DNA of 6,685 nt from Candidatus Alcyoniella australis (GTDB lineage Bacteria; Lernaellota; Lernaellaia; JAVCCG01; Alcyoniellaceae): NCBI GenBank assembly GCA_030765605.1, contig JAVCCG010000116.1, positions 1 to 6,685 on the forward strand, written 5' to 3'. This document shows positions 1-1,128 of this stretch, one piece after another. The position numbers and the translations under genes were made by a program. Each line of letters opens with the position of its first letter. The first letter of the stretch is position 1. The notes beneath the pieces are model-generated. The model had not been told where the DNA came from. It saw only the letters and a list, made by a program, of their open reading frames with translations, and ran no database searches.

Positions 1-69
1 CGCACCCAGTGTCCTGCTTTGCCAATAACGCTGGTCAGTCCTATTTTCGGATGAGAACCCGCTGATCAA

Positions 70-146
70 TCCCCCGCGCACACAATTGCATCGCCTTTGA
101 GCTTAGTAGGAAAAATCTCAAACTGATTTTTGCCGAGCGCGGGGGA
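70..146. repeat. Long-range 10-bp inverted repeat enclosing an A/T hairpin
   Basis: TCCCCCGCGC at 70-79 is the exact reverse complement of GCGCGGGGGA at 137-146. Nested inside, AAAAATC at 111-117 pairs with GATTTTT at 125-131 across a 7-nt loop. The two helices are compatible and would form one compact domain as RNA or extruded DNA. The inner hairpin has A-runs on one side and T-runs on the other, so it could be a weak terminator on either strand, but its stem is short and AT-only apart from one pair. Strand and function are not decided. Confidence 0.5.
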
Positions 147-153
147 GAGAAGC

Positions 154-184
154 GGCGCGTCGGCTTGGAACAAGCCGACGCGCC
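154..184. repeat. Perfect 14-bp GC-rich hairpin with GAA loop
   Basis: GGCGCGTCGGCTTG at 154-167 is exactly complementary to 171-184, leaving only GAA as loop. The match is perfect over 14 bp. No U-tract follows on either strand, so it is not a standard terminator. Its apex word CGGCTTGGA (161-169) recurs inverted at 215-223 in the next hairpin, suggesting that the two are related elements, such as a REP-like extragenic palindrome pair. A structured RNA leader is the alternative. Confidence 0.65.
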
Positions 185-199
185 TGCCCCACCCCACCT

Positions 200-234
200 G
201 CTTGCCGGGGCGGCTCCAAGCCGCCCCGGCAAGC
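200..234. repeat. Perfect 16-bp GC-rich hairpin with CCA loop
   Basis: GCTTGCCGGGGCGGCT at 200-215 is exactly complementary to 219-234, with only CCA (216-218) between the arms. This is the strongest predicted structure in the window by length and GC content. It lies 16 bp downstream of the hairpin at 154-184, has the same 3-nt loop size and shares an inverted 9-bp apex word with it. The sequence after it is CTACAC, not a T-run, so intrinsic termination is unlikely. It could be a repetitive extragenic palindrome, an mRNA-stabilising element or a roadblock structure. Confidence 0.65.
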
Positions 235-242
235 CTACACAC

Positions 243-264
243 AAAGATCGATTAATCGATCTTT
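243..264. promoter_or_regulatory. Perfect 22-bp palindrome, candidate operator
   Basis: AAAGATCGATT at 243-253 is followed directly by its exact reverse complement at 254-264, giving a 22-bp perfect palindrome with no spacer. It is AT-richer than the hairpins beside it. The half-site CGATCTTT (257-264) recurs at 276-283, 19 bp on. A perfect two-fold symmetric site plus an extra half-site is the usual form of a binding site for a dimeric regulator, and it sits 121 bp before the GT2 start. No known regulator consensus is recognised. The alternative is a stem-loop in the leader RNA. Confidence 0.4.
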
Positions 265-335
265 ACCAACCTCCCCGATCTTTGGTCGCGGAGAGGCACA
301 TTGGATTACGGCCAGCGAACTACGCGAGTTTTGCG

Positions 336-352
336 GGCACCTCTAAGGTGCC
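336..352. repeat. 7-bp hairpin with CTA loop just upstream of the GT2 gene
   Basis: GGCACCT (336-342) pairs exactly with AGGTGCC (346-352) across CTA (343-345). It is the third hairpin in this region with a 3-nt loop and ends 32 bp before the first possible start of the GT2 gene. It does not cover the ribosome-binding region. It is short enough to arise by chance in GC-rich DNA, so its significance rests on its place in the series. Confidence 0.35.
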
Positions 353-384
353 GCGTTGACGAATGGTGATGAATATTCCAGGTT

Positions 385-1128
385 ATGGGCATGTCAAAGC
401 GGCTAGTGATGATCCCGGCCCTGAACGAGGAGCAGACCATCGGCGACGTGGTGCGCGAGGCTCAGGCCGCGATTCAGGGCGCGCGCGTACTGGTGATTAA
501 TGATGGATCGACCGATCGCACGGCCGAAGTTGCGCGGGCCGCGGGCGCGCTGGTGATCGATCTGCCGCTGCGCACGGGGATCGGCTGCGCGGTGCAGGTC
601 GGCTACATCTACGCCTTGCGCAACGGCTACGAGCTGGTGGTCAGGCTCGACGGCGACGGCCAGCACCCGGCGGACCAGGCCGCGGCGTTGATCGCCAAGG
701 TCGAAAGCGGCGCGGCCGACGTGGCCGTGGGCTCGCGCTTTGTGATCAGCGTCAGCCGGGAGTCGACCACTGCGACGCGCGTGCTGGGGATCAGGTTGTT
801 CTCGGTCCTGATGCGGGTGATGTTCTCGCTGCGCAGCACCGATCCGACCTCGGGCCTGTGGGTTGTGGGGCCCGCTGCGCTGAAGCTGCTCAGTTCGCAC
901 AGCCCGGACGATTTCCCGGAGGTCGAGTCGCTGGCCGTGTGTCAGCGCATGGGCCTGCGGGTCTGCGAACTGCCGGTGCGGATGCGCTCGCGCCAGGGCG
1001 GCCGCTCGTCGATCGGCTACCTGGATGCGTTGCTCTACATGGCCAAGGTAGTATTCTCGCTGGTGGTGATCTCGATCAGGCGCTACGATTCACGGGGACT
1101 TCCCAAAGACCCGTTGGAACTGCCATGA
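385..1128 (+). CDS. Family 2 glycosyltransferase, polyprenyl-phosphate sugar transferase type
   Basis: A 247-residue GT-A enzyme of the DPM1/DPG-synthase-like branch of GT2, which usually moves a sugar from a nucleotide donor to a polyprenyl phosphate on the cytosolic face of the membrane. Visible motifs: PALNEE (11-16) at the N-terminal strand, NDGSTD (39-44) for nucleotide binding, DGDGQH (89-94) holding the metal-binding D89-x-D91, TSGLWV (155-160), and DFPEVE (176-181) in the acceptor/catalytic region. Residues 213-231 are hydrophobic and may touch the membrane; there are no multiple C-terminal TM helices. An in-frame stop at 370-372 fixes the 5' limit. ATG 385 has AGG only 2 nt upstream, whereas ATG 391 (Met3) has it at 8 nt, so Met3 may be the true start. 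Its TGA overlaps an ATGA that leads into the DUF2304 gene. Family is firm; sugar and lipid substrates are unknown. Confidence 0.93.
   Translation: MGMSKRLVMIPALNEEQTIGDVVREAQAAIQGARVLVINDGSTDRTAEVARAAGALVIDLPLRTGIGCAVQVGYIYALRNGYELVVRLDGDGQHPADQAAALIAKVESGAADVAVGSRFVISVSRESTTATRVLGIRLFSVLMRVMFSLRSTDPTSGLWVVGPAALKLLSSHSPDDFPEVESLAVCQRMGLRVCELPVRMRSRQGGRSSIGYLDALLYMAKVVFSLVVISIRRYDSRGLPKDPLELP

Follow-up and report, generated by a model that had tools for sequence, protein, structure and literature searches.

A mosaic island of hairpins in Candidatus Alcyoniella australis probably belongs to a new REP/BIME-like repeat family

Introduction

GTAG REPs are hairpin-forming extragenic sequences whose stems come in alternative complementary versions. 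They occur as dimers and in groups, mostly less than 20 bp from the 3' ends of genes and in convergent or unidirectional gaps, where they often supply TAG stop codons; mRNA stabilisation or an action in termination has been proposed for REP elements (PMC3733652). In REPINs, two REPs form an inverted doublet, and the hairpins show compensatory changes (PMC3116915); RAYTs have been proposed as the movers of REPs and REPINs (PMC2817692). The TnpAREP proteins of E. coli, Stenotrophomonas and Marinomonas cleave folded single-stranded REPs, and their dependence on the GTAG sequence differs (PMC8266576).

Here we analysed a stretch of 6,685 nt (the window), which is the whole of one contig of Candidatus Alcyoniella australis and in which a sequence-only reading had noticed a cluster of inverted repeats at 70-352. 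We consider it likely, with a probability of roughly 80%, that positions 1-355 hold a single copy, truncated on the left where the contig starts, of a composite extragenic island that belongs to a new mosaic family of REP/BIME-like repeats; this family would spread through its hairpins and be tolerated at gene ends. Among the possibilities raised from the sequence, the REP/BIME-like array is supported by what was found: the repeats are multicopy, extragenic and palindromic, they form inverted dimers and they lie at the 3' ends of genes.

Results

Inverted repeats at the start of the contig

The five inverted repeats that had been described are all present in the sequence at the expected positions (Table 1), and they are real and far beyond chance. 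When 200 first-order random sequences with the length and dinucleotide make-up of the window were used as controls, the best perfect arms around a 3-nt loop were 5-10 bp long, versus 16 bp observed, and the best gapless palindrome arms were likewise 5-10 bp, versus 11 bp observed, in agreement with the view that such stems are hard to obtain by chance. The proposed folding check gave the same answer: segment 60-390 folds with z scores of -7.9 (RNA, plus strand), -8.1 (RNA, minus strand) and -8.9 (DNA, plus strand), and none of the shuffled sequences was equally stable, either as RNA of one or the other strand or as DNA. It had also been supposed that no protein-coding explanation fits and that no T-runs follow the stems; indeed, not a single ORF of at least 80 aa overlaps 60-384, and no T-run terminator was found within window 1-420.

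Table 1. Features of the repeat island in the window
Feature	Position	Strand	Remarks
Repeat module A, right-hand part of a giant hairpin	1..211	+	Left arm off contig
10-bp long-range helix around a small hairpin	70..146	+	Arms 70-79/137-146, perfect
Module A: right arm of its long closing stem (AAAAATCTCAAACTGATTTTTGCCGAGCGC region)	about 111..141	+	From the L012 fold
Swappable slot hairpin, 14 bp, 3-nt loop	154..184	+	Arms 154-167/171-184, perfect
16-bp, 3-nt-loop hairpin linking modules A and B	200..234	-	Arms 200-215/219-234, perfect
GTAG-type tag at the foot of the 200-234 hairpin	235..238	-	
22-bp palindrome AAAGATCGATTAATCGATCTTT, A+T-rich	243..264	no strand	Perfect
65-nt REP-like unit: internal GGTCGT/ACGACC hairpin, CGCGAGTTTTG motif, terminal hairpin	288..352	+	
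Terminal hairpin of the unit, GGCACCTCTAAGGTGCC	336..352	+	Hairpin alone 17 nt; 7-bp stem with 3-nt loop in RNA and DNA folds

The extent of 70-352 assigned earlier falls inside the repeat, but the feature is bigger, and homology to other copies begins at base 1. Bases 1-127 recur exactly where contig C92 ends and where contig C25 begins, and C104 and C115 likewise have 127 bases in common. The contig starts at an assembly branch within the repeat; these repeats explain the fragmented assembly, the contigs of which break within them.

On its other side, the island is located 32 nt upstream of the start codon of a GT2 gene. What had been read as a glycosyltransferase pair is one GT2 gene (PF00535, 385-1128) and one DUF2304 gene (PF10066, 1157-1537). 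The DUF2304 gene lies immediately 3' of the GT2 gene and is followed by two GT4 genes on the opposite strand, beyond which another GT4 gene and a zinc-type dehydrogenase gene are found, an assortment typical of a polysaccharide-type cluster.

Two modules, a palindrome and a 65-nt unit

Searching the genome of origin (4.29 Mb, 157 contigs) with segment 60-390 returned 90 matches in two groups, which correspond to module A (about 1-211 of the window) and module B (about 209-355). BLAST copies of module A share 86-99% identity and are located on contigs C25, C63, C69, C151, C67 and C92. In an intact copy (locus L012), module A folds into a single giant hairpin that is closed by more than 30 pairs in a nearly uninterrupted stem; the window carries the right part of this hairpin only; the left arm that pairs with the counterpart of 111-141 is present in L012, L013, L021, L032 and L015. 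The 10-bp helix that had been recognised around the small hairpin is perfect, but it may be secondary, given that 111-141 pairs in intact copies with a partner that lies off the window's contig. The helix probably competes with this longer stem, and in one copy (L032) an inverted dimer stands in place of the helix region.

Inspection of 56 loci in the genome yielded a common plan for the islands, in which the 65-nt unit is followed by the 22-bp palindrome, then by a GC-rich stem whose foot reads CTAC on the plus and GTAG on the minus strand, and then by inner modules that are interchangeable hairpins or giant hairpins. The unit carries GCGG at one end and the terminal GC hairpin, and its internal hairpin is weak in the window copy. 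Reading the minus strand of the window, GTAG (238-235) directly abuts and precedes the 200-234 hairpin. Across copies, the tag at the foot of this GC stem is GTAG in 24 of 43 and GTGG in 12 of 43, whereas the unit's terminal hairpin has no GTAG at its foot. The stem of the 200-234 hairpin is altered on both sides in the window, from the consensus GCTCGCC/GGCGAGC to GCTTGCC/GGCAAGC, and in longer copies (L013, L023) its loop is occupied by other hairpins or by 200-nt inserts.

The family is abundant within its own genome. A covariance model of the 65-nt unit (R1), with which the window copy scores 76 bits, has at least 172 matches there; it found the unit in none of six genomes of the same class, all of which come from other families, and the window repeat had no DNA match in 40 other genomes. 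Recurrence in the source genome and its relatives had been proposed as a check, and the repeat proved to be multicopy across the former and was not found in those of the latter that were searched. Simple pattern searches agree with the model: the ACGCGAGTTTTGYRGC motif of the unit has 151 matches in the genome versus 11 for the reversed control, and the 22-bp palindrome has 62 sites at up to 2 mismatches versus 0 for the reversed pattern. The 22-nt junction motif had no exact counterpart among viral contigs.

Pairing is kept while the sequences change

Copies of the hairpins differ in ways that preserve their pairing. In 43 copies of the palindrome, 99.0% of the cells are paired and 81 cells are changed on both sides, with a covariation score of 0.547 versus a shuffled mean of 0.153 and far lower values for every slid control; for the unit, the corresponding figures are 91 both-side cells and a score of 0.225 versus 0.118, and in both cases the covarying cells do not represent independent events, since the copies are related and fall into subfamilies. 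RNAalifold predicted only 7 pairs from the unit alignment, and the pairs of the unit structure were counted directly alongside it. The terminal stem takes a few alternative forms in 90 units, namely CACC/GGTG (39/90), CGGC/GCCG (33/90) and CAGC/GCTG (9/90); the remaining ones are mostly single departures, and terminal stems are nearly always complementary.

The slot occupied by the 154-184 hairpin in the window is filled by differing sequences, all eight versions of which form a stem of 13-15 bp with a 3-nt loop. The alternative hairpins were seen in L013, L012, L010, L015, L026, L028 and L040 and were folded one by one, a MAFFT alignment of them being of no use. Intermediates changed on one side of a stem are rare, which suggests that stems are exchanged whole, or that one arm is copied from its partner, instead of compensation building up slowly.

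Units lie behind genes, next to stop codons

Gene context was assessed at the 56 sampled loci, which were chosen for holding the repeat, with approximate gene calls from an in-house codon model for which these same loci had served as training set; in this sample, 0 of 175 units lie within called genes. Units occupy 24 convergent, 21 tandem and 3 divergent gaps, versus 9, 96 and 34 such gaps, respectively, that lack units, so convergent gaps are strongly enriched (Fisher p 2.6e-10). Among 80 gene edges that face a hairpin, 48 are 3' ends within 30 nt and none is a 5' end within 30 nt, and the distance from the terminal hairpin to the 3' end of the gene is often 0-5 nt. Gene 5' ends are faced by 22 hairpin ends at more than 30 nt, and the window copy, at 32 nt, belongs to this minority. 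TAG is the stop codon in 18 of 27 genes that end 0-6 nt from a hairpin versus 68 of 202 others (p 0.001), an excess that matches the description of GTAG REPs, the termini of which often supply TAG stops (PMC3733652). The idea that the window hairpins form the leader of a glycosyltransferase gene is not supported: their modules turn up again at scores of loci unrelated to it, and no facing gene edge is a 5' end within 30 nt.

Inverted dimers and signs of movement

Neighbouring units are arranged as direct repeats or as inverted pairs with their hairpins outward. When neighbours have opposite orientations, the order is '-+' in 20 cases versus '+-' in 1, and in 15 of the '-+' pairs exactly 3 nt separate the two units. 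One type of dimer is found inside module A at two places (L015 and L032), where it replaces the local sequence; module A is without a dimer there in the window, L009, L012, L013 and L021. At a further locus (L010), this dimer type abuts a shortened O-methyltransferase reading frame, and the gene has apparently been cut by the repeat. Taken together, comparison of copies within this one genome indicates that the modules move or recombine. The shortened frame (L010:4245-4556, minus strand) resembles the O-methyltransferase model PF01596, with the similarity ending at model position 67 of 204.

A single RAYT gene in the genome

The genome contains a single gene for a RAYT-type Y1 transposase (C95:13478-13834; L129:1351-1923, minus strand). 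Its reading frame, as listed, has 190 aa and matches NF047646 at 146 bits, and the nearest solved protein is TnpArep (4er8, E 1.4e-21). A covariance model search of a 5-kb locus (L130) around the gene detected no unit beside it, and no convincing terminal inverted repeats were found to flank it. In the gap between the RAYT gene and the convergent downstream gene, a 14-nt stretch, CGAGCTTTGCGGGC, located by a TAG stop, resembles by eye the flank of a terminal hairpin; this stretch is possibly a degenerate unit beside the RAYT gene.

Discussion

The family shares most of its general traits with GTAG REPs (PMC3733652): it has a high copy number (usually more than 100 in those REPs), is extragenic and hairpin-forming, has complementary alternatives of the stem and occurs in dimers and groups; like them, it is placed within about 20 bp of the 3' ends of genes, where the gap is convergent or unidirectional, and has TAG stops as neighbours. 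Unlike these REPs, which are 20-40 bp long, its unit has 65 nt and two hairpins; furthermore, its tag is kept only in part and stands at another stem, and the unit was not found beside the RAYT gene. The REPINs of Pseudomonas fluorescens SBW25 (PMC3116915) are comparable in that inverted doublets appear to be the copied entity, hairpins show compensatory changes, tandem clusters are formed and a RAYT is encoded within the genome; however, the doublet spacer in our family is usually 3 nt between 65-nt units, and doublets are nested in other hairpin modules and were not found to flank the RAYT gene. Enterobacterial BIMEs are likewise mosaic islands of palindromic units in opposing orientations behind genes, but their sequences differ from those of our family, which in addition possesses very large inner hairpins (more than 30 pairs in L012) and a slot in which a hairpin is replaced wholesale. 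The protein encoded on C95 is a predicted homologue of TnpA_REP/RAYT (E. coli, 4er8; NF047646), matching it over most of its length and keeping the HLH (HUH) motif and the Y..NPVKHG region, but its gene is without intact flanking repeats. By all these likenesses, the window family would work like the published REPs and REPINs; we stop short of calling it a true GTAG REP or REPIN, since its unit exceeds the length of that class, the tag is kept only in part and the RAYT gene is not flanked by it.

Under the REP/BIME-like reading, the units would spread as non-autonomous elements. An enzyme would recognise their hairpins in the form of folded single-stranded DNA, and the most plausible candidate for it is the single RAYT of the genome, a TnpA_REP-like HUH/Y1 transposase. 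The units would survive mainly just behind stop codons, where insertion may be least harmful and where a hairpin at the stop may shield the 3' end of the mRNA or mark its limit; the place of the window island upstream of the GT2 gene would be happenstance. This last role can be turned into an explanation of its own, in which the hairpins are functional elements of mRNA 3' ends, either stabilisers or factor-dependent terminators, under selection as RNA and mobile only incidentally. We regard it as possible, though clearly less probable than the REP/BIME-like reading. The terminal hairpins do abut stop codons, often at 0-5 nt, exonuclease protection needs no T-run, and REPs have been proposed to act in mRNA stabilisation or termination (PMC3733652). 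Such a function would not call for the many redundant hairpins, tandem arrays and symmetrical halves seen in the islands, nor for copies that are nested in repeats without an adjacent gene. Moreover, the terminal hairpins comprise 11 G-T and 16 A-C cells versus 568 Watson-Crick ones; pairs of the G-U kind hardly ever occur, so there is no clear strand-specific RNA signature. The genome also has ordinary T-run terminators, as read from the sequence at L025 and L044. The hairpins themselves were rejected as intrinsic terminators, since T-runs are missing from window 1-420 and from the flanks of the terminal hairpins that were read.

Somewhat less probable, and in our opinion doubtful, is that the units are MITE-like elements whose mover is a different transposase, or a recombinase, and not the RAYT; examples would be an integron-like enzyme acting on folded attC-like sites and an IS110-type enzyme. 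Structure that is kept as the sequence varies, together with tandem direct repeats of ~67 nt, recalls attC, and the RAYT gene lacks a flanking repeat. However, no integron integrase above the TIGR02249 cut-off was found, with matches at the Xer level only, and the arrays hold no cassette genes; an attC/integron array was rejected on these grounds, as was an IS110-type mover because the transposase domain PF02371 was not found. By far the least probable alternative, which we consider very unlikely, is that the island forms a structured leader RNA, riboswitch-like or an attenuator, by which the GT2 and DUF2304 genes are regulated. The position of the island 32 nt before the GT2 start and the strong folding (z -7.9) would suit it; against this, the modules of the island also occur at scores of other, unrelated loci, chiefly behind genes, the opposite strand and the DNA fold equally strongly, and the unit was not found in the relatives from the class. 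In addition, Rfam gave no match in the window or in seven other loci, only tRNAs reaching the gathering score in these 8 loci, and a leader RNA or riboswitch was rejected as a candidate. The case serves as a caution that hairpins of this kind should not be taken for riboswitch-like leaders.

Under the REP/BIME-like reading, the known repertoire gains a family whose nested architecture is unusually large and whose host belongs to an uncultured lineage with few sequenced relatives. The exchange of stems with pairing kept provides many natural variants for probing recognition by RAYT or by a template-switching polymerase. A more far-reaching thought, which we offer as a long shot, is that the hairpins are selected or rewritten as shapes, with stem length and the 3-nt loop kept in each slot, both arms replaced together and whole inverted dimers taking the place of hairpins inside other hairpins. 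If true, folded single-stranded DNA would be recognised by RAYT independently of its sequence, or template switching would repeatedly copy arm from arm. Among the class-mates, one genome (G005) has 23 Y1_Tnp matches versus 1-7 in the others, and it may host REP-like or IS200 families of its own.
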